From a virus: DNA of 64,000 bases. The notes under the pieces are model-generated. The model was not told the DNA's origin. It ran no database searches and saw only the letters and a program-made list of their open reading frames with translations. The position numbers were made by a program, and so were the translations under genes. The stretch lies in the IMG/VR virus record IMGVR_UViG_3300033997_000092, positions 186,001-250,000 of that record; one strand, written 5' to 3'. The first letter of the stretch is position 1. Each line of letters begins with the position of its first letter. Shown here piece by piece: positions 26,119 through 38,334 of this stretch.

Positions 26119-29100
26119 TTATAGAGAAGTTATGTTATTGTTGTTAATCAAGAACCTGGAAGTTGTTTCTGGATTCTCAATTATAACAGGCGAGCCTGCG
26201 TCTTGCGCGATAGTCAGACCTGAATTCTGCCATGCTGACACACTCTGGTTATACCGATATGTAATGTTTGCTTGAGCATCGTAAACTTTTGTTAAGTCCA
26301 CAGCTCCAGAAAACATTGTATCTAAGAATGTTGCACCTGCTTGGCTTCTGACCATATACCCGTAATTGCTTTGATTGCGGAACGGCGCATATTTTGAATC
26401 AGAATTCAAATCAAGCGTTATAGTCGAGTTCGGATCATATGATGGGACTGCTCCTGTGTACCAATCAGTACAACGCGCTGTTAACGTATTTCCTGAGCGG
26501 ACAACTTCAATTTTGCGTCGGGCATCAGACCATCCTCGTATACCACTTCCTACAAGTATACCAGGAATAGAAGCTACTACGACACCATTCTCAATAAAGA
26601 ATAGTCCCCAATTCATGTCAGGCGCAGGCGTCATACCGTTACCTATGCCACCACCTGTACAACAGAAAGATATTGTACGTACTATGTTGTCTGACCCTAA
26701 ATCGAAGCCCACTAATGCTCCTATTAAGTCGTCATCGGTATCAGCAGATGTTACAACCACTTCATACTTGTAGTCGCTATATTTATCAGGAGATACGAAG
26801 CCTGTGTAGGACGATAAGTTGTCTGGCATAACTATTCTGTCTGGGTTAGATTGTAGTTGCCAGTTTGCTGCGGATCCTTGTGCTGTGCTGGCATTTGCAT
26901 AGAAGTTGTTTGCGTCAGTTCTCCCCCAACTGTTGAAAATCTCTTGTTGGGTTGGAGGAGAGTACGCATTCATACGGGCCTGTGCTTCTACAGACGTTCC
27001 ATAAATATAACCAGAAATTTGTGGAATCGGTGTAGGGCAATTCATCGTGTACGTCCATGCCGTTCCATCTGGACCTGTCACACGTATCATACACGTTGTT
27101 GCGTGTGGAGGGCCAGGATAAAAGAAACTTAATGTTCCGTTACCTGAGACCAAACCACCTGTAGTAGCAACAAGTTGACCTTCATAGAAGATTTCCATCA
27201 TGTCAGGTACACTGTACATAGTGTAGTTTACGTCAAGACGTCCTGCATCAGGACCTAAATAATGTATCGTTTCTGTTGTTCCTGCACCACCTGCAGGTGT
27301 TTCAACACCGCAAGGAGTAGCATCGTCGTCGCGTATTGTGATAGTTCCTATAGGTTTAACAAGGATACCACGAGTGTTGTTGGATAAGATGATTTCAAAA
27401 GTTTCATCATTCTCTATATCGCTATCACCTACTATCGTAATAGGAATAGTCTTTTCACTTTCGCCTGATTGGAAGCAGATTTGCCCACTAGCACCGACAT
27501 AATCTGGTTCTTGATCAACTGCGTCGATATATGCTTCTGATTGACCTGAGTTGATTTGGCCAGTCATTCCTGTCCACAATGGATGAGGTCCGTTCTGGGC
27601 AATAGCGTTTTCCACAGTCAAATTCATTGTATCGCGATCTATTGAGCCTTTGAACTTAATCCCGTAGAAATCAAACAGAACTTCGTTGGCGCCCTTGTAG
27701 AAGCCTATGCCGCTAGGGTCACCATCTACGCCGTGGTCAGCGATTACACCGAATCCTTGACCTGCAAGATGTGAAGCCTTCATCGCTGCTATCAGCGCTG
27801 GAGAGTTTACTTGTCCTCCAGTGTATGCACTACTGATATACAAAACACAATCAAATCCGTCAAAGAACGCTTGTGTTTCTGGACACTCATTGCCGTACAT
27901 GACTGTTAACGTGCGTCCTGTACCTGCAGCAGCCGAAGTAAAGTAGTTTGTGAAGCCTGTGTACGTTACACTGTCTTTAACATCGTAAGCTTGTCCAGCT
28001 ACTCCTGCATCACCCATGAGTAATACTGCGCCACCTGTCTTGCTTCCACTTAACCAGTTCATTACGTTTTGTAAGAACAGCAGAGTGTTTCCGTACTTCT
28101 GGACTGTAGCGCGATCATTCCAATATCCGTTGTAGAATTTAGGAAATGCACCGTCTAAGTACATCTTACGGTCACCAGCTATGTTCTCAATAACCATAAC
28201 ATGGGGGAGCTGTTGGTCGTCTTTAGCTAATGAGCGAACACTCAAGTCGCTCTTTGCAGTTCCATCTTGTGTACGCCAATCGACACACAGTGGAGTTGAT
28301 CCCTGATAAGGCTCGCTAAGGAAAACACGTACATCTATTTCGCGGGAAACATCCAATTCAACGATGCTCATGTCTTCTATGCGAATCTCAGGATCGTTAC
28401 CCTCAAGAACGCACGGTAATTCAAATGTGATTGTTCCAGAATCAGTATCACTTACACCAAGAACAGCATATTGCTTATCCGCAACAGTGGCTGTTATTGT
28501 TATAGGATATTGTGCGCGGTTATCTTCAAGTGCCAGTTGTTTCGTGAAACGAATCTTTGCTATACGTCCTTCTTCTTGGACTTCTAGCAGTTCTACCATT
28601 CCGTTACCTATGTCTCCGTGCCATAGATATTCGTATTTTCTCTGTTGCCAGTCAGGAGGATTAACAAATCTGACTTCAACAAGTGCTTCTTGTGACCAGA
28701 CATCATCAACAAAATAACATCTGTCTTCACATGGAACAGGCGGAGGCGGTGTTGGATCGGGTGGAGGAGGAGCAACAGGCACTACTGGAGTACGCTCATA
28801 CACTTCGTACAAGTGAGGACTATGTTCACCCCAACTATGCACTTGACGATAGCCTCTACGTTCCCATGTCTCCGGACAAAATCCAAATGGAGCACTAGAG
28901 CCACTTTCAGTAGCTAAAATGTTCCAGCGCCACCGAGCTAATATCGACGGGTCTGTTACTATCAAAGGGTCAGTGTATATAGATGCACATGATATTTCGT
29001 CTGTGCCTCTCGGATCACTGTACACACTTGAGTATTCTTTATCGTTTTCCCAAGGAAATGCTGTGGCTTCATTTGACTTACCGCCAATCATCTTACCTTT

Positions 29101-29823
29101 AGGCAACTGTGTGAATATTCGCTTCCATCCGTTGTACTTGTCATCAGGCTGAGTTACTGTGCGTATTGGTCTACGTGCTAAATAACGTAAGTTTGCATTG
29201 GTGTCGATTATTTTCATGCGACGACCCGCCAAGCTGCTTGGATTACCGGGAGCTCTAAAGAAGCTGCACCAACCGCCAAACACCTGCGCGTGATATATTT
29301 CACCTGAACTGTTGATTAGTCCATTATCGATTCTGTTACACGATGCAGGACAGAACGCATAACCTTGCGCTACAAAACGTGGATTACCGCCGTACGGACC
29401 TACGTTGAATACTCCATGAGCATGTACAAGATACTCATAATCATCTTCCCATTGAATAGGAAAATCAGTCACGGCGCCTAACCAAAAATGTTCCCAGTTG
29501 TCGTTATCACCTGCAGGAGAAGCAGTACCGAAGTTGATAGGACGTTCCAGGATACGTATGATATTTACGTTACCTCCGCGCCTGTCAATACTGCGGATGC
29601 CTTTAGTTACTTGATCGAATATCATCCAACCGTCAATAGTTCTGATAGCAAATCCGCGATCTCCTGGATTTATAGCTGCTGCCAGTGTTATACAGCGGCT
29701 GTGATCCATTTCGATATTTCTGTGTCCCGCTATAGAGAACACAATGTATTCATGATCGAATTTCCAATCATACGGAACCCATGTAGCTCCGTTCAAATTG
29801 TCATAGACTACATTCCAAGTCAT
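26119..29823 (-). CDS. Giant tail/surface protein with a split Calx-beta domain, 1234 aa
   Basis: Residues 1 to about 340 are unusual W/Y/G-rich sequence with many paired cysteines. A proline hinge follows (PPPPDPTPPPPVP, near 350), then beta-sandwich domains. A Calx-beta domain begins near residue 495 (FLSEPYQGSTPLCVDWRTQDGTAKS) but is interrupted. About 245 residues resembling a flavodoxin-like or ThuA/GATase-like alpha/beta domain (VLLMGDAG, FDCVLYISSAY, GFGVIADHG, HPLWTGMTG) lie between its GTA and PDY parts. It resumes near 773 (PDYVGASGQICFQSGESEKTI) and closes with GTITIRDDDA near 830. The C-terminal ~400 residues include a lectin-like beta region. Likely host-contact or tail-tip protein. 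Confidence 0.82.
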   Translation of the reverse strand: MTWNVVYDNLNGATWVPYDWKFDHEYIVFSIAGHRNIEMDHSRCITLAAAINPGDRGFAIRTIDGWMIFDQVTKGIRSIDRRGGNVNIIRILERPINFGTASPAGDNDNWEHFWLGAVTDFPIQWEDDYEYLVHAHGVFNVGPYGGNPRFVAQGYAFCPASCNRIDNGLINSSGEIYHAQVFGGWCSFFRAPGNPSSLAGRRMKIIDTNANLRYLARRPIRTVTQPDDKYNGWKRIFTQLPKGKMIGGKSNEATAFPWENDKEYSSVYSDPRGTDEISCASIYTDPLIVTDPSILARWRWNILATESGSSAPFGFCPETWERRGYRQVHSWGEHSPHLYEVYERTPVVPVAPPPPDPTPPPPVPCEDRCYFVDDVWSQEALVEVRFVNPPDWQQRKYEYLWHGDIGNGMVELLEVQEEGRIAKIRFTKQLALEDNRAQYPITITATVADKQYAVLGVSDTDSGTITFELPCVLEGNDPEIRIEDMSIVELDVSREIDVRVFLSEPYQGSTPLCVDWRTQDGTAKSDLSVRSLAKDDQQLPHVMVIENIAGDRKMYLDGAFPKFYNGYWNDRATVQKYGNTLLFLQNVMNWLSGSKTGGAVLLMGDAGVAGQAYDVKDSVTYTGFTNYFTSAAAGTGRTLTVMYGNECPETQAFFDGFDCVLYISSAYTGGQVNSPALIAAMKASHLAGQGFGVIADHGVDGDPSGIGFYKGANEVLFDFYGIKFKGSIDRDTMNLTVENAIAQNGPHPLWTGMTGQINSGQSEAYIDAVDQEPDYVGASGQICFQSGESEKTIPITIVGDSDIENDETFEIILSNNTRGILVKPIGTITIRDDDATPCGVETPAGGAGTTETIHYLGPDAGRLDVNYTMYSVPDMMEIFYEGQLVATTGGLVSGNGTLSFFYPGPPHATTCMIRVTGPDGTAWTYTMNCPTPIPQISGYIYGTSVEAQARMNAYSPPTQQEIFNSWGRTDANNFYANASTAQGSAANWQLQSNPDRIVMPDNLSSYTGFVSPDKYSDYKYEVVVTSADTDDDLIGALVGFDLGSDNIVRTISFCCTGGGIGNGMTPAPDMNWGLFFIENGVVVASIPGILVGSGIRGWSDARRKIEVVRSGNTLTARCTDWYTGAVPSYDPNSTITLDLNSDSKYAPFRNQSNYGYMVRSQAGATFLDTMFSGAVDLTKVYDAQANITYRYNQSVSAWQNSGLTIAQDAGSPVIIENPETTSRFLINNNNITSL

Positions 29824-29859: not shown

Positions 29860-32800
29860 TTATAATTGAAGATTTCCCGCAACGTCTGACAATACTAAAG
29901 TAAGTTCGTTACTCTTTAATATATTGCCTGCGCTGTCTTTTATTAAACAGTATACCCTCCACTCACTGCGTTTTTCAGGAGGTGTGTTTGATGATAAGTG
30001 TCCATCTATAACTTCCACTCTAAATAAGTCATTATCTGGAGAGAAGTCATTAGGCACGGCTACATCAATTTTAGCAACATAATTGCTATTAGGGTTGTTT
30101 ATGTTGTTGAAAGTTTCGACAGCTTCCCATTTGTAAGAATATGTCTTTGCAGGATCGTATGGATACGAAGCAGCAATTCCATGTCTGTTACGTGCGGCAG
30201 GATTACTGACAAACCCACCGTTAGCTTCCATATATGCTATTTTTCCTGGCTGCGCTATTTCTGTATGGTTTTGATCAGCTAATTGAGAGAATCCTATACC
30301 AAATATAACTGCACATCCAAAAGCTTGGTATTGTGTTGTTGAGTATGATTCTGCGGCATAGTTAGTACGTGTGAAGTTTAAGTCACTCACTGTGCCTCCA
30401 CCGACATTCGGCTTCAGTATAGTAACAGTACCTTCGTTATCCAGAATTGTTGCATTCACAGGATTACTTATACGCAAGTAGAACTGTCTGCCATTATTGT
30501 CGTGCGCTGGAGTTAATGTTTCCACAGGAACATTAACACTTGCTTGTCCCGCTAACAATGTAGCTGTCCCACTGCGACTATTGTAATCCGGATTTTGCAC
30601 TGTGCTTTCTGGAGTAACCATTAACTGCGCTTGGTTGTAGCTTGCATCTATTACACCATCTGTAGGAACGCCTTGAACAAGCGGACTTCCAGGAAGGTGA
30701 GCTAAATGGTCAACTACATAATATTGAGGAGTAGCGCGCCATTGACGCTGTGTAGCATCGAATGAAATACGCTCATCCGACAAGTTGTTGAATGTTGCCT
30801 GTAGTGCTGCATTGGCCCAGTAGTTACGGTGCATGTCCGTCGGGAACACACGCATTGGGAAGTGCAGTACAGCTCCATTACGCAGCAGTGTTCCAAGTGC
30901 TTGGCCTATACGCGCAGTATTACCTGACATATAGACAGCAGCAACTGAGAATCCTGACATCTGGAACCACAATTTAGAATCGGCTACAGTAATAATGTCA
31001 GCATCCGTTGTAGACAGTGTGTTTTCCCACGTGTTGCTATTGTTTGGGATAGTACGCATTGGAACCTGCACAACAGTCATGTTGTAGATGTTACGCATTG
31101 CCTGAATAAAGTTAGAGCATTTAAGTGCCCACTCTGTTTCAGGTTCACCTTCACCTAGTATCAGCCATTTCTTGTTAGTCAAATCTGGAATTTTCATCTT
31201 CCATGCGTTAACTGTCATCTTGGCTTCTGGTGTAAGCGTAGCAAACGATGATACTGCCTGAATAGTGTTTATTTGCGAACATTCGGTCGCACGATATTCA
31301 CTGTTCATCAGGCGTTCCCACGAAGCATCTACTACAAGAGAGCCTGCTGTTCCGGGGAAGTTTTGTACGCCGAAAGTAGCTAAGTTCGGCACTGCGTCAC
31401 CGTATGGACGGTTCTCATTGCCTGTACTGAACACTGCCAGAGTACCACTTAATCCACTACTACCGCCAACACTTTTAGCTGTCCCATCTACAGTAACAAA
31501 ATCAAACGTCACATCAGTTGGAGCAGGAATATTGCTGCTGACAGTTACTTGGGCAACGGCACCTTTAGTCACATTGGCATCACTGACCACCAACTGCACT
31601 TCGTCATCACATACAGGTATAACTTTATCATCTACTTCAATGTCCAATACAGGAACAGGACAACCAACAAAGTATTCCCAGCTTGAGCCTAATGGTGCAT
31701 CGATTCTCACTGTGATACGTTTACGTCTGCCATTATCTAAAGCACTGTTTGTAAGGAATTGCACGAACGTAGTGCGCTTGCCTGTTTTGGCTTCGATAAG
31801 ATTCATGTCCATGTCGAATACAGACACGACATATTGGAACTCGCCTTTACCAACTACTTTGATACTGACTACGCCAGGATCGACACCATTATCCATATCA
31901 TAGTTGTCTTCTGTGCTGCTGTGGCCCATAGACTGCAATCCAGCTACAGGTTCCTCACACGGCCACGGATTATCACGGTAGCCTGGAGTGTTTGTACAGA
32001 ACAGAGTATAATACCAGCTTTTCATATCGTCATCGAGCAGACGCTCTGCCGATGTTACACGTACCATGATGTCATGTACTTCTGTAGGGAACTCGTAAGG
32101 TTTCCACCACCACTTCAACGAACCTAATTCTTGAGCTGGGTCCATTGTACTTGCTACACGATTCTGGTTGTGATACACTTCAAACTTATCTGCATTTAAC
32201 CAGCTAGTGTAATCAAGAACTAACTGCCAGTTCACGTTAGGGTCTGATACTGGGCCGATGTAATGATGGAATTCATAGTACCACTTACCGTCTTCCAAAC
32301 GTGCTTCAAGAGGAAACACAGTTGCGTGACACGGAGCAGGGTAAATAGGAGTACCGACATATTCTTCTGTGAATACACCCAAGAATTGATTCAAGTCAGT
32401 GTTATCCAAATTCACAACAGCTAAGTTGGGTTTTGGTCCCACAAATTGATACGCCCAGCGAGTACCGTCGCTACCACGCACACGAATCATAACACGTTGT
32501 TCACCTTCACCTACAGCTTGGTCAAGATAGAATTCGATTTTGCTACGATCTTTAACACGGCCACAAGTTGTTGCTATGCGAGTTCCCATGTAATAAACGT
32601 CAACACTGATACCTTCACTGTCGTAGCTGGCAAACAACACTTCAAAGTAACCTGGACGATCACCTGTGTTGAATATAGTTTCAGTTATCTGACTTCCGCC
32701 ACTGAACACACTGCTTCCCAAGTAGTTCGGGTTAGCATAAGTACCACGACCGTATGACGGCGTAACACCTGAATCATCGTAGCTTTCAATAGCATAGTTT

Positions 32801-33231
32801 AATGCTGGACGTTTAAGCACGTAGCCTTTAGGTGCACCAGCATCCGGCAACTTTTCAAATCCCGGTTCACCTGCATCAGGCAAATCATATCCTGGAGGAT
32901 AGCCTGTTATCAGATTGAACAAGTTACCATCAGAGCCTATTCCATTTCCAGAACCAGCTTCGTCTGCTGTTAGTCCTGGAGGACAATTCACTGAACCTAC
33001 TACGCGGAATTCACACTCAACATCAAAGCGAGGATCGAATGTGCAGTCGTTATGTATAAACTCACTATTGGCACCATCACGCATACGGATAGCTTTTGGG
33101 TCAATAAGCAGCCAGCTCCTGTTGTCGCGTGACCTGATACGCAACGTAGCTTTGCATGGATCTAGCCATTTATTGTTGTAGGAGTTTCTTATTAAGAGGC
33201 GTCCCAGCGCTGGGATTTCGTTATCAGCCAT
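29860..33231 (-). CDS. Giant tail/surface protein with a split Calx-beta domain, 1123 aa
   Basis: Several beta-sandwich modules repeat in the first 550 residues: NTGDRPGYFEVLFASYDSEGISVDVYYMG, DYTSWLNADKFEVYHNQNRVAST, and GVVSIKVVGKGEFQYVVSV, each ending in a T/S-W-x-Y strand. A Calx-beta domain opens near residue 555-580 (PTDVTFDFVTVDGTAKS). It is interrupted by about 295 residues resembling a flavodoxin-like fold (NKKWLILGEGEPE, DADIITVADS, AVLHFPMRVFP, GSPLVQGVP) and resumes near 881 (PDYNSRSGTATLLAG), ending at GTVTI near 934. The last ~185 residues are a separate beta domain. Paralogue of the downstream giant protein in layout. Confidence 0.82.
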   Translation of the reverse strand: MADNEIPALGRLLIRNSYNNKWLDPCKATLRIRSRDNRSWLLIDPKAIRMRDGANSEFIHNDCTFDPRFDVECEFRVVGSVNCPPGLTADEAGSGNGIGSDGNLFNLITGYPPGYDLPDAGEPGFEKLPDAGAPKGYVLKRPALNYAIESYDDSGVTPSYGRGTYANPNYLGSSVFSGGSQITETIFNTGDRPGYFEVLFASYDSEGISVDVYYMGTRIATTCGRVKDRSKIEFYLDQAVGEGEQRVMIRVRGSDGTRWAYQFVGPKPNLAVVNLDNTDLNQFLGVFTEEYVGTPIYPAPCHATVFPLEARLEDGKWYYEFHHYIGPVSDPNVNWQLVLDYTSWLNADKFEVYHNQNRVASTMDPAQELGSLKWWWKPYEFPTEVHDIMVRVTSAERLLDDDMKSWYYTLFCTNTPGYRDNPWPCEEPVAGLQSMGHSSTEDNYDMDNGVDPGVVSIKVVGKGEFQYVVSVFDMDMNLIEAKTGKRTTFVQFLTNSALDNGRRKRITVRIDAPLGSSWEYFVGCPVPVLDIEVDDKVIPVCDDEVQLVVSDANVTKGAVAQVTVSSNIPAPTDVTFDFVTVDGTAKSVGGSSGLSGTLAVFSTGNENRPYGDAVPNLATFGVQNFPGTAGSLVVDASWERLMNSEYRATECSQINTIQAVSSFATLTPEAKMTVNAWKMKIPDLTNKKWLILGEGEPETEWALKCSNFIQAMRNIYNMTVVQVPMRTIPNNSNTWENTLSTTDADIITVADSKLWFQMSGFSVAAVYMSGNTARIGQALGTLLRNGAVLHFPMRVFPTDMHRNYWANAALQATFNNLSDERISFDATQRQWRATPQYYVVDHLAHLPGSPLVQGVPTDGVIDASYNQAQLMVTPESTVQNPDYNSRSGTATLLAGQASVNVPVETLTPAHDNNGRQFYLRISNPVNATILDNEGTVTILKPNVGGGTVSDLNFTRTNYAAESYSTTQYQAFGCAVIFGIGFSQLADQNHTEIAQPGKIAYMEANGGFVSNPAARNRHGIAASYPYDPAKTYSYKWEAVETFNNINNPNSNYVAKIDVAVPNDFSPDNDLFRVEVIDGHLSSNTPPEKRSEWRVYCLIKDSAGNILKSNELTLVLSDVAGNLQL

Positions 33232-33287: not shown

Positions 33288-33782
33288 TTATTTAGTTGCT
33301 ATCCATAAAGCGCCTGCACCTACTGCACCAGGATCTTCAGCTTGAATGTAGATCTGCACACGTCCATCTTGTCCTCTGATGCCTTGAGGACCTGTAGATC
33401 CTGTAGGACCAATAGGACCTTCAATGCCTCTAGGTCCACGTACTCCAGGCTTACCTTGAGGGCCTTGGGGTCCACGACATCCACGAGGACCTTGAATACC
33501 TTCAGCTCCAAGTAAACCATCTACACCAGGAGAACCATCGAATCCAGGAAGACCTTGACGACCTGTTCCCATACTTGATAGCGTTGGATATCCGCGAATG
33601 TGCAGAGGCTCAAATCCTGGAATAGTTATTGTAGTTATTCCCATTACAGGATCGAATACACCAGTTACACTTTGCCCTGCTGTAGGATCAGGTAATACAG
33701 AAAGTGATTTGCCTTCAGCTACAACTTGACCTGCTACTGCGGTAGCTGGCTTAATCATATCCATAGATACTTTGGTAACCAT
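33288..33782 (-). CDS. Collagen-like protein ending in a short beta tail, 164 aa
   Basis: Residues about 73-140 are Gly-X-Y triplets (roughly 22), with one GCRG triplet. The N-terminal module (MVTKVSMDMIKP ... GITTITIPGFEPLHIRGYPTL) is the same type as in the three other collagen-like proteins here. After the triplets, VQIYIQAEDPGAVGAGALWI matches [19 protein letters not shown] of the next gene, a short end motif often seen at the tip of phage collagen fibres. It forms part of a run of three adjacent collagen genes, likely building trimeric stalks or fibres at the baseplate. Confidence 0.85.
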   Translation of the reverse strand: MVTKVSMDMIKPATAVAGQVVAEGKSLSVLPDPTAGQSVTGVFDPVMGITTITIPGFEPLHIRGYPTLSSMGTGRQGLPGFDGSPGVDGLLGAEGIQGPRGCRGPQGPQGKPGVRGPRGIEGPIGPTGSTGPQGIRGQDGRVQIYIQAEDPGAVGAGALWIATK

Positions 33783-33792
33783 GAATCACTCC

Positions 33793-34440
33793 TTAATCGA
33801 AAAACTGTTCAATGTCATCATCAATCTGACCCACAGTAGGATTAACCCAAATACCGCCAGGACCTATCGATGGTCCGGGATCGATTTCACTGATAACGAG
33901 ATTGATACGTCCGACTGGGCCTTGAGGACCAATGGGGCCTGCTGGACCAGGAGCGCCTGTTGGGCCTGTTGGGCCTTGAGCTCCAGTCGGACCTGTAGGA
34001 CCTGTAGGTCCCATTTGACCCATAGGACCCGGACACCCAGGAGCTCCCTGAGGACCTATGTCTCCAGGCAAACCGTCGCGTCCATCTAAGCCCTGAGGAC
34101 CTGTTGGGCCCTGAGGACCAGGACATCCTGCTTCACCTTCTAAACCGTCGCGTCCATCTTTACCTGGAGCTCCGTCAGGACCCGGATCACCCTGAGGACC
34201 TTGAGGACCCTCAGGTATCTGACTTACTATGGGAAAGTTACCCAGCACTTGTGTACTGCCGTCATAGAACGAGAATATAACTTTGCCTGTAGTTTCGTCG
34301 TATCTAAGTCCTGTCACAGGGGACACTGTTGAAGCAGTTCCTTCTGTGGGAGCAAGTACGCCTCCAACAACGCTTAAAGATTTACCTTCAGCCGATGTAG
34401 GCGCACGAACCATGCTTGTGTCAATTCTTGTTAGTTTCAT
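33793..34440 (-). CDS. Collagen-like protein, 215 aa
   Basis: Longest triplet run of the group: about 33 Gly-X-Y units from near residue 85 to 185, with two GCPG triplets and runs of [10 protein letters not shown]. The N-terminus ([16 protein letters not shown] ... [21 protein letters not shown]) is the shared attachment module. The C-terminal [21 protein letters not shown] is the same end motif as in the downstream collagen gene. Expected to trimerise into a rigid rod. Starts four bases after the stop of the Hint-containing gene. Confidence 0.87.
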
Positions 34441-34443
34441 TAC

Positions 34444-35949
34444 CTATACCTTATGAATAGGACCCGCGTTATCTAAGTTGTGAATTAAATAACCACTCAC
34501 AAAGAATACGTCGGTCGTTTCCACATTGAGGCTGACTACAGGCTTCTGGTCTTCAATAACTTCCACTTTAATTACATCGTGGAACTGACCAGATTCGTGA
34601 TAAATTTTGTCACCAACAACTACACGATACATACGTTCAAAATAACAAACGCCATTACGTTGAATTAATATGTTTTCGTCTGATGTTAATGTGACAGTGC
34701 CATTCAGTCTGATAAACCTTCCGAATGAGCTATGCGTGGCTGTCATTACAACAGCGGCTTCATACTCTGCTTTAAAATTAGTTGTTGTCCACGATAAGAA
34801 CTGATCGTTATCTGAACTATCAGGAAGTCCTGCAATACGCACTGAGTCAACCGCGTCTGCTTCGTAAAGCGATTCGACTAATACTTTGCGCCTGCCCGCA
34901 GAAATCATTTGACCGTACGGTATACAGCCGCCACCGCCACCTCCAGGAGGGTTAGTTGGAGGGGTAGCTGCATTAGTTGCAGAAAACTTAAACGTACCTG
35001 TCAATGTCAGTGTTTTGTTGTTGTCACCTGTGTCTTTGATTGTCAGTATTACCTGACCTTCGCGGACTTCAGTTGTTCCTGGAGCAACATACACACGACA
35101 ACGCAAGTTCATGTTTGTGGAACTATCGCCTGTTTGATATATGTAGACATTTGGCGCCATCGTAAGAAAATCACCTGTCCACTTATACTCAAAAGGACCT
35201 TTACCGCCACTAAAATTGTCGAGTGTGTACGCAGCAATGCCTTCGTAGAAATCACCACCGACATGGGACAGCGTTAATGCGCGACTAGGAATGCTGCCAC
35301 GCATTTGCTCTATAATCTCTGGATTAGTAGGAAGACCTGTATCAACAGTAACAAGTTGCCCCCAGATATAGACAAGTGGATCAGTAGGTTCAGAATCGCT
35401 GAATACTACAGATGTTATAGGCGTAGGACCTGTAGGACCTGTAGGACCAATCAAGCAGCTATTACCTATCGCTCCTCGTGCACCGTCAGGTCCTGTCGGT
35501 CCTATTATACCCATCGGGCCTGTAGGACCTTCATCGCCTCCACAGCCTAGCGGGCCTACTGGTCCACGGGGGCCATCTTCAGCATCTAATCCTGGCTCAC
35601 CCTGAATACCCATCACACCAGGAATACCAGCACAGCCTACTTTGCCCTTACGGCCATCAAAGCCTTTGTAGCCATCACGGCCTTTACGTCCAGGAAGACC
35701 TTTCTTGCCAACTTTACCTGTACCCAGATTGGACTGTGTTAAGAATCCTGTAGCTTCAAAAGTACCGTCGGGCGTAATGAATGTTAGAGCACCACGTACA
35801 CTGTCCCAAGCAAACTCATAAGAACTTGACTTCGCTACAGGAGGTGCTTCGTAATCTATTAGCGCAGAAGAACCTGGTACGATAGCCTTTTGACCATCGT
35901 ACCCTTGTTCAGCAGCTACGTTTTGTAAGTTAACGTAAGTGTCTGACAT
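34444..35949 (-). CDS. Collagen-like protein with C-terminal Hint (intein/hedgehog-type) domain, 501 aa
   Basis: N-terminal attachment module (residues 1-75), collagen-like triplets (about 75-170) with GCAG and GCGG, then a beta-sandwich spacer (PFEYKWTGDFLTMAPNVYIY). After a PPGGGGGG hinge comes a Hint domain, from C342 (GCIPYGQMIS) to H490-N491 (VETTDVFFVSGYLIHN). It contains the block-B-like strand TLTSDENIL and the block VVVGDKIY. In block B the usual histidine is Glu, and the residue after HN is Leu rather than Cys/Ser/Thr, so protein splicing is unlikely; cleavage or C-terminal processing is conceivable. Tail or baseplate protein by position. Confidence 0.82.
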   Translation of the reverse strand: MSDTYVNLQNVAAEQGYDGQKAIVPGSSALIDYEAPPVAKSSSYEFAWDSVRGALTFITPDGTFEATGFLTQSNLGTGKVGKKGLPGRKGRDGYKGFDGRKGKVGCAGIPGVMGIQGEPGLDAEDGPRGPVGPLGCGGDEGPTGPMGIIGPTGPDGARGAIGNSCLIGPTGPTGPTPITSVVFSDSEPTDPLVYIWGQLVTVDTGLPTNPEIIEQMRGSIPSRALTLSHVGGDFYEGIAAYTLDNFSGGKGPFEYKWTGDFLTMAPNVYIYQTGDSSTNMNLRCRVYVAPGTTEVREGQVILTIKDTGDNNKTLTLTGTFKFSATNAATPPTNPPGGGGGGCIPYGQMISAGRRKVLVESLYEADAVDSVRIAGLPDSSDNDQFLSWTTTNFKAEYEAAVVMTATHSSFGRFIRLNGTVTLTSDENILIQRNGVCYFERMYRVVVGDKIYHESGQFHDVIKVEVIEDQKPVVSLNVETTDVFFVSGYLIHNLDNAGPIHKV

Positions 35950-35964
35950 ATATTTGCCTTTAGT

Positions 35965-38334
35965 TTACGGCAAAGGAACTACAATGCCTGTCAACTCTGC
36001 TACAAGTGCTATTGTGAACTGGCCAGCAACAACATTCGTTACTTTAGCTTTAGCTACAATATCAACTACGCCATCTGGGTAGTTTTCTTTAAGCAGAATA
36101 AGACTTGACCCTTTAGAACCGTTACCATATCCGTAAGAGTTTTCACCGCCACGCTGAGTAGCAATACCTGTCTCGCCTGTACCTGGAATACTACGACCGT
36201 AGTCAACTGTCGCTTCACTAGGACGCTTAACAGCCAGAATGAATTGCAATTCTTCATTGCCTGATGTCACAGTGTAACCTGGACCTAAACGGGCACTAAA
36301 GTCTGCATGGACGTTAATCATTATGTCTGTTTTGAATTCCACACGCTGCGTAATGACAACTTCGTTTGTGTCTTCGGCGCGTTGGCGTGAACTGATGCGT
36401 TGGTAGTTACCTTTATCAAGTCTGACCTTATCAGTCGAACTGATTTTGAAGTTAGGGAACGTACCTTCTATTAGCATGCCTGGACCTGGAACCAAGTCAA
36501 TCGGCACAGCAGGCAGGAATATTGGGTCAGCATTCTGACGTATTACCTTGTACCCTGTTGGTGTAGGAATAATATCAGTTACCATTCCACGCAATCCAGT
36601 GTCGCTGCTTCCTTCTGCTCTTACGTTATGGAAAATCATTACTTCAAGTGGTCGTCCCGTAGCAAAATCTGTTCTTGCTACAAGCTTGTTGCCTACAATA
36701 GAATACTCTGACTTCATAACGTGTGCACCTGACTCACTCAAAAACACTAGGTCTTTTGACTGTGGTGCGATTGGCAGTGAAAGCACGTTACGCTTGGTAG
36801 TCGGATTGAACGTAGCCGTGATTACCTGTGTACTATAGCCTGGAATTGGACGCTGTATGAAAGCGTTGATTTCAATCTTCAAGCCTACACCAGGAGCTTC
36901 GCTGAATATTACTTTCCTGCGTACAACATCTACGGTATATGACGAATGCACTGTCATTATCCTGTCGATGAAGCACCAAGAATAGAATACGTTTTCAATA
37001 TCAGCAGGCAAGTCGAATTCACGACGGGAACCATCACCAATATCTTCAAAGCTAACGCATTCCGTGTACATGCCCGAGTGAGGCTCTAACTGGAATAAAC
37101 GCGCATCGATTTCTAACCCAGAAGGAACATTCTCTGCAAATTCCAGCATGTTGTCTTCGATGTTAGCGGACTGGCGGAACTGACGCACACCAGAAATACT
37201 GATATACCAGTAATGGCTATTCTTGCGATAGCTGTACAGGCGCATCTGAGTTTCATCTACACCTGCTGTCAGTGGATCTTCGCTGTACAGAAGGAATTTG
37301 TTTGTTTCTTCCATAACAACTTGCGTTATCGCACTGAACTTCAACTTACCTGGAGGATGATACAGGTTTCCTCTTGTGCGGGAAGCTGCTGCTCCACTCG
37401 GTACCCAACGTGGAACACCATCAAGCGGACCAGCTACAAGTACCCAGTCTTCATCTGTTCCTGCACGGCTAGGCAATCCTGAACCTGAGCCTTGCACTGT
37501 GTTTTGTTTCCAGATACTTACAGTGCTTGTTACATCAAGTTCCAAGAACGCCAAATCACGGGTCATTACTTCTTCGGCTGCTGTTATAACACAACGTCGT
37601 GTAGTACCTTCTCCAGGACCTGAAACAATTTGAACTACAACAATGTCATCTTCTACAAGACCATAATCAGTTATCAATGAATCGACTTTGAATATCGACG
37701 GGTCTGTTACTTCTGTTGGGTTACCCATAAACAACTTGGTAAATCCCAGGAAGCTCCAATGCTTACCTGCCAATCCACCGCGCACAGCAAGTCCTGCTGT
37801 TTCACTGTTTTGTTCATCTGGATTGACGACAATATCAAGCACAGCCACAGCATTGGTGATTGCTTCTGCTGGATTAGGTAAGGCATCGACGTTGCCTACA
37901 CTCGGTACTGAACCGAATTCTGACAGTGTGACATCGATAACGTGTGCATTGCCTTGTGCTAAGTGCAACAAGAATTCTATTTGCGCCGCACGATTCTTCC
38001 GTTTAGTAACAGATTCACTGAAACGTACACGGCCTAACACAGTGCCGTCGTTCAGTCCAATAGTTGCTTCCGACAGTTCTATTGATGAATTGCCTCCTAC
38101 TTCACGAGGTACAACTACAGTGAACCGAACTGTATTGCGGTTTAAAACTTCAATGTAGTGAATGCGTCCGCTGTGGTGTTCTGTACCTAGTAACGCATCT
38201 GGTGTCTGAGCCGGTTCTGAGCCTTGGTAATCACCAACAGCAAAGAAACGGGGGCGAATAACTGCGCCCCCTGCTTCGGCACTCAGCAACGCCTGTTCAC
38301 CTTGTGGGGTAAGAATCAAACGATCTGGTGTCAT
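35965..38334 (-). CDS. Baseplate/tail-fibre protein, gp12/gp34-type N-terminus, 789 aa
   Basis: The opening MTPDRLILTPQGEQALLSAEAGGAVIRPRFFAVGDYQG matches the N-terminal module of phage tail-fibre and wedge proteins (LTxxGxxxLxxA, then FxxGD) that docks fibres on the baseplate. The remaining ~640 residues are successive beta domains; one near residues 440-500 (CVSFEDIGDGSRREFDLPADIENVFYSWCFIDR) has the DGS-R-x-F-x-L-P pattern of a repeated fibre domain. It is encoded directly after the big baseplate protein, as fibre-attachment proteins usually are. Likely a proximal fibre or fibre connector. Confidence 0.8.
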   Translation of the reverse strand: MTPDRLILTPQGEQALLSAEAGGAVIRPRFFAVGDYQGSEPAQTPDALLGTEHHSGRIHYIEVLNRNTVRFTVVVPREVGGNSSIELSEATIGLNDGTVLGRVRFSESVTKRKNRAAQIEFLLHLAQGNAHVIDVTLSEFGSVPSVGNVDALPNPAEAITNAVAVLDIVVNPDEQNSETAGLAVRGGLAGKHWSFLGFTKLFMGNPTEVTDPSIFKVDSLITDYGLVEDDIVVVQIVSGPGEGTTRRCVITAAEEVMTRDLAFLELDVTSTVSIWKQNTVQGSGSGLPSRAGTDEDWVLVAGPLDGVPRWVPSGAAASRTRGNLYHPPGKLKFSAITQVVMEETNKFLLYSEDPLTAGVDETQMRLYSYRKNSHYWYISISGVRQFRQSANIEDNMLEFAENVPSGLEIDARLFQLEPHSGMYTECVSFEDIGDGSRREFDLPADIENVFYSWCFIDRIMTVHSSYTVDVVRRKVIFSEAPGVGLKIEINAFIQRPIPGYSTQVITATFNPTTKRNVLSLPIAPQSKDLVFLSESGAHVMKSEYSIVGNKLVARTDFATGRPLEVMIFHNVRAEGSSDTGLRGMVTDIIPTPTGYKVIRQNADPIFLPAVPIDLVPGPGMLIEGTFPNFKISSTDKVRLDKGNYQRISSRQRAEDTNEVVITQRVEFKTDIMINVHADFSARLGPGYTVTSGNEELQFILAVKRPSEATVDYGRSIPGTGETGIATQRGGENSYGYGNGSKGSSLILLKENYPDGVVDIVAKAKVTNVVAGQFTIALVAELTGIVVPLP

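Follow-up and report, generated by a model that had tools for sequence, protein, structure and literature searches.

A BIL-like Hint domain lacking the block B His at the C-terminus of a collagen-like phage tail protein

Introduction

A-type BIL domains are defined by a length of 130-155 aa and a His-Asn at the C-terminal end, and a nucleophile at position +1 is not required (PMC9185962, PMC7765530). The block B His has been reported as essential for the N-S shift if the residue at position -1 is Gly (PMC6333167). Some inteins manage without this His, and Tko CDC21-1 was reported to use Lys (PMC5874633, PMC7765530). Self-cleaving C-terminal domains are already known on phage fibres. In phage T5, pb1 carries a C-terminal trimeric coiled-coil intramolecular chaperone with a cleavage site at Ser1264, which is auto-proteolysed after folding (PMC4690869). 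In the literature searched, a Hint domain acting as a self-cleaving C-terminal domain on a phage fibre was not found described; the inteins that were described lay in terminase, ribonucleotide reductase and other genes, with tail fibres not among them.

The NCTB, Dickeya and Erwinia phages, PaBG and Lu11 have been put in one group (PMC7412058). NCTB gp136 and gp110 of Erwinia phage Y3 already bear the annotation 'putative phage tail protein, contains intein domain', so that a Hint in these proteins had been noted before. Here, the corresponding gene was analysed in a stretch of 64,000 nucleotides (the window) taken from a 261-kb virus record.

Results

Gene and domain layout

An earlier reading made from the letters of the window (the sequence-only reading) had given the right coordinates for the gene, which was found on the minus strand (Table 1); the plus strand across 34444-35949 was full of stops. 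The predicted protein matched the virion structural protein profile phrog_38766 (E 2.2e-58) from residue 28 to 494 of 501 against profile positions 24-471 of 478, and this full-length match together with the conserved gene order assigned it to phrog_38766. The collagen-like character claimed by the same reading was borne out by Pfam. The last residue of the Gly6 linker is Gly -1 of the Hint domain. Codons of C342, T422-S-D-E425, H490-N491 and L492 were read directly from the DNA. The same phage is represented by another IMG/VR contig, of 10,945 bp, which carried an identical Hint gene and differed by one mismatch at position 126, outside the gene; this ruled out E425 as a sequencing or assembly error.

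Table 1. Features of the Hint gene locus and free-standing Hint-fold genes of related loci.
Feature	Coordinates	Strand	Basis or remark
Collagen-like tail protein with C-terminal Hint domain, 501 aa	34444..35949	-	ORF, phrog_38766 match, syntenic orthologs
Collagen Gly-X-Y region, about residues 77-175	35425..35721	-	Pfam Collagen E 7e-13
Ig-like beta-sandwich domain, about residues 176-331, boundary approximate	34957..35424	-	AlphaFold model strands and ortholog alignment
Gly6 linker, residues 336-341	34927..34944	-	
Hint domain, C342-N491, 150 aa	34477..34926	-	AlphaFold model, Foldseek, VIA-align, leave-one-out HMM
C342, Hint position 1, codon TGT	34924..34926	-	
Altered block B, T422-S-D-E425	34675..34686	-	T-x-x-H in orthologs
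H490-N491, conserved block G pair	34477..34482	-	Invariant across 32 Hints
10-residue tail LDNAGPIHKV	34447..34476	-	Asn cleavage would free it
Tail-collar fibre gene, upstream	35965..38334	-	Synteny marker, phrog_21488
Collagen gene 2, downstream	33793..34440	-	
Collagen gene 3, downstream	33288..33782	-	
Free-standing Hint-fold genes	L003:9506-9967; L027:13933-14397; L028:13936-14400		Always directly after the collagen-Hint gene

The three adjoining collagen genes lie at 33288-35949 (minus strand) in the window and recur in relatives. A simple scan of Hint-less loci gave near-constant repeat counts for them (26, 31 and 20), and a fourth collagen gene with a repeat count of about 21-22 was located further downstream. 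Calx-beta domains were present in neighbouring tail proteins of the window (26119-29823, minus strand) and of locus L030 (12324-14498); the latter places Calx-beta directly ahead of a C-terminal Hint.

Hint fold of the C-terminal domain

The sequence-only reading had placed a Hint domain between C342 and H490-N491, to be compared with Hint families by HMM and to be given up if no Hint fold was predicted. A profile HMM was built from 31 Hint domains of other loci, leaving out that of the window protein. It scored the window domain at 80.9 bits (E 4.7e-23, Z=10000), whereas not one of 2000 shuffled sequences appeared up to the E=100 cut-off. In the AlphaFold model of residues 176-501, the mean pLDDT was 84, rising to about 90 for the greater part of the Hint, which showed a clear Hint fold; the input alignment included intact Hint relatives, so that the model shows the fold of the family and is not an independent measurement. 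VIA-align of the model gave a Z of 19.4 with BIL2 6y75_B (rmsd 1.5 Å, 135 residues) and 17.7 with BIL 2lwy, the latter being also the best Foldseek match (E 8.8e-8). Positions 1 to 440 of Mtu RecA intein structures aligned by VIA-align to model positions 167 to 316, which are C342 to N491. The C-terminal part of the window protein is a Hint domain, beyond chance.

Membership of the Hint superfamily was evident from the fold of the AlphaFold model and not from a curated profile above its cut-off. Pfam Intein_splicing gave 15.6 bits on the window Hint, below the cut-off of 35.8, and the relatives scored 25.8 (Alexandra) and 28.6 (Afa) with Pfam Hint_2 against a cut-off of 28.4. A phmmer search of PDB sequences returned MJ0781 (KlbA intein) as the sole match, with an E of 0.29. 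Used alone as query against viral contigs, the window Hint retrieved the same phage only, and one lineage with this type of Hint is known. A Foldseek search of viral models showed that further virion-like phage proteins, with the names fibronectin III, PASTA and collagen, also bear Hint folds.

Orthologs and catalytic residues

Full-length co-linear orthologs with about 30% identity were found in jumbo phages allied to PaBG, NCTB and Alexandra, among them Alexandra, Yoloswag, Y3, AD1, fHe-Yen9-02 and NCTB. Their common gene order consisted of a tail protein of about 1500 aa, a collar fibre of about 780 aa, the Hint gene, two collagen genes and a large protein. In Alexandra-type phages, the median dN/dS of the Hint was 0.12 versus 0.117 for the Ig part, a rough estimate with many dS > 1, which suggests that their Hint is under purifying selection.

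Residues were compared across 32 different Hint domains from syntenic loci, the window included. The His-Asn pair formed the only two invariant columns (32/32), and the window Hint retains it at about 22% identity. Cys1 was present in 28 Hints besides the window, all of which (28/28) had T-x-x-H in block B. The window Hint has Cys1 and T422, and its block B His is replaced by E425. As read earlier from the letters, block B is TSDE with Glu for His, and Leu (L492) follows His-Asn, a position taken by Thr in most Alexandra-type members. Block A of the window Hint, a change missed in the earlier reading, has EAD in place of the usual Gly-Asp, and the Asp of 'TVDIDV' in Alexandra-type members corresponds to Ser in an alignment made without a structural check.

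Class 1 splicing inteins have T-x-x-H in block B and C, S or T at +1; the window Hint has T-S-D-E and L492, in agreement with the earlier view that splicing is unlikely. The length of 150 aa, H490-N491 and the non-nucleophilic L492 fall within the A-type BIL definition, and of the BIL pair of intact Cys1 and block B His only the Cys is present. E425 together with Gly at -1 should block the N-terminal step here, which speaks against the earlier proposal that the protein cleaves at its N-terminal Cys (PMC6333167).

Hint-less, swapped and free-standing variants

Orthologs of the Dickeya JA29 type (loci L031, L034, L036, L037, L039 and L064) stop at '..ARNPK', where Alexandra runs '..ARNPVNTATSG' into Cys1. 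From its sequence, the Hint-less protein would be about the product that N-terminal cleavage would leave. In PaBG-type phages, a different C-terminal part stands in place of the Hint. This domain ('..WYSTWANY..VMCGTL..') was seen in loci L012, L045, L055 and L069 and had no Pfam name in L012, the one tested.

A free-standing Hint gene of about 150 aa was found in NCTB and in the marine loci L027 and L028. These Hints have neither Cys1 nor the block B His, keep His-Asn, and gave a model with a Z of 17.0 to 6y75_B. Their retention in the three phages indicates that Hints without N-terminal chemistry are maintained in the gene module. In NCTB, L027 and L028, a large protein terminates in yet another Hint, the third of these loci; that of NCTB matched inteins of mycobacteriophage terminases and of T4-like recombination genes. 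The window encodes at 29860-33231 (minus strand) a protein homologous to NCTB gp132 ('large intein domain protein'), and it stops just before the Gly6 and C-terminal Hint of NCTB. One Hint was found in the 261-kb record, a free-standing Hint gene being absent from the record and likewise from the interval between the Hint gene and collagen gene 2. A scan with the NCTB free-standing Hint found 0 relatives, and scans with alignments of the 'large' and the free-standing marine Hints found already known contigs only.

Discussion

Overall, the reading that we favour on balance is that the window domain is a BIL-like self-removing C-terminal domain in which N-terminal cleavage was lost and the Hint stays as a folded cap. 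The loss would follow from the fact that all 28 Cys1-bearing relatives keep T-x-x-H and the window Hint does not. From the sequence, orthology, predicted fold and residue losses we infer the activity of the relatives, the inactivity of the window Hint and its role as a cap. In relatives with Cys1, T-x-x-H and His-Asn, the Hint probably removes itself through a thioester at Cys1 and cyclisation of the Asn at its C-terminal end, and a fibre of collagen and Ig parts would be released, similar to the direct product of JA29-type phages. In the window phage, the first step was probably lost and the Hint would remain as a C-terminal cap; cleavage after N491 may still occur and would trim 10 residues. 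Maturation of a fibre by its Hint, as suggested by the sequence-only reading, thus suits the relatives, where Cys1, T-x-x-H and His-Asn appear under purifying selection, and fits the window phage less well. Its other suggestion, a structural relic, comes close to the present reading, except that in our view the fold is being retained and is not in decay.

Two observations weigh against the favoured reading. Exceptions to the need for a block B His, of the Tko CDC21-1 kind, have been reported (PMC5874633, PMC7765530). As an alternative, the window Hint may still be active, with another residue compensating and C342 slowly cutting off the Hint or joining the fibre to some other molecule. In favour of this, Cys1, T422 and His-Asn are present, the fold is predicted well and at least one intein is reported with Lys for the block B His (PMC5874633). 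Against it, the His was reported essential precisely when Gly stands at -1, and both the block A Gly-Asp and the 'TVDIDV' Asp (here Ser) are altered; we regard continued activity as unlikely. The other observation is that the long branch of the window Hint (2.98, the longest in the tree) and the loss of the block A Gly-Asp would also fit decay. A functionless Hint decaying neutrally after the loss of its job, with deletion yet to come, would agree with several altered catalytic positions and with JA29-type phages living without any Hint. It is quite improbable in our judgement, given an open frame, a confidently predicted fold and His-Asn kept despite such low identity, and since three further phages keep similar Hints, likewise without the N-terminal residues, in genes of their own.

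The origin of the window Hint was also considered. A collagen gene could have been fused to a free-standing degenerate Hint with the active Hint being lost, in which case the fold would be a partner or chaperone in the module. The free-standing gene of NCTB, L027 and L028 is missing from this record with its single Hint, and window and free-standing Hints share an 'RI..[LM]P.S' stretch and both lack the block B His. The tree weakly joined the two, but with a support of 54/10 and long branches meeting, and a topology that forced the window Hint into the collagen-fused group could not be rejected (p-AU 0.113). Moreover, the window Hint has Cys1 and T422 like the active group, and leave-one-out HMMs gave 48.7 bits for the free-standing versus 68.3 bits for the collagen-fused Hints (built from 3 and 28 rows, respectively). 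The fusion was not adopted because the tree does not place the window Hint, and it is considered very unlikely.

Returning to the loss of N-terminal cleavage, a wider version is conceivable, if doubtful: the collagen-like tail subunit of this jumbo-phage group would be a pro-protein, its Hint roughly a self-removing C-propeptide, and Hints that no longer have the residues for N-terminal cleavage, whether in their own gene or fused, would be kept as folding or cap partners. At one syntenic position, nature offers a graded set: the Hint is intact, is missing its block B His, is encoded on its own, or is absent. With this set, maturation of a fibre by its Hint can be tested directly in phages in culture, Alexandra for example, and it would show the use of the Hint fold after loss of its first reaction.

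Among known systems, the Hog part of Hedgehog likewise has a C-terminal Hint on an N-terminal working part, with a Z of 17.6 between the model and 1at0, but the 10 residues after N491 leave no room for a sterol-recognition region, and transfer to a sterol of the hedgehog type was ruled out on that count. T5 pb1 resembles the maturation idea for the relatives only, as a C-terminal domain, on a trimeric fibre, that cuts itself off after folding; it is a coiled-coil chaperone and not a Hint, and the likeness is one of function alone with no homology claimed. NCTB gp136 and Y3 gp110 are full-length co-linear orthologs in the same gene order, and differ in that T-x-x-H and the block A Gly-Asp are kept there and lost in the window Hint. 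The closest solved structures to the window Hint are BIL domains (6y75, 2lwy), tied with inteins. With A-type BILs the window domain shares a size of about 150 aa, the Hint fold, Cys1, the C-terminal His-Asn and a +1 residue that need not be a nucleophile; it differs in lacking the block B His, in its C-terminal position with 10 residues after it and in its location on a phage collagen-like tail protein. Because the block B His is Glu, it is classed as BIL-like rather than as a BIL member.
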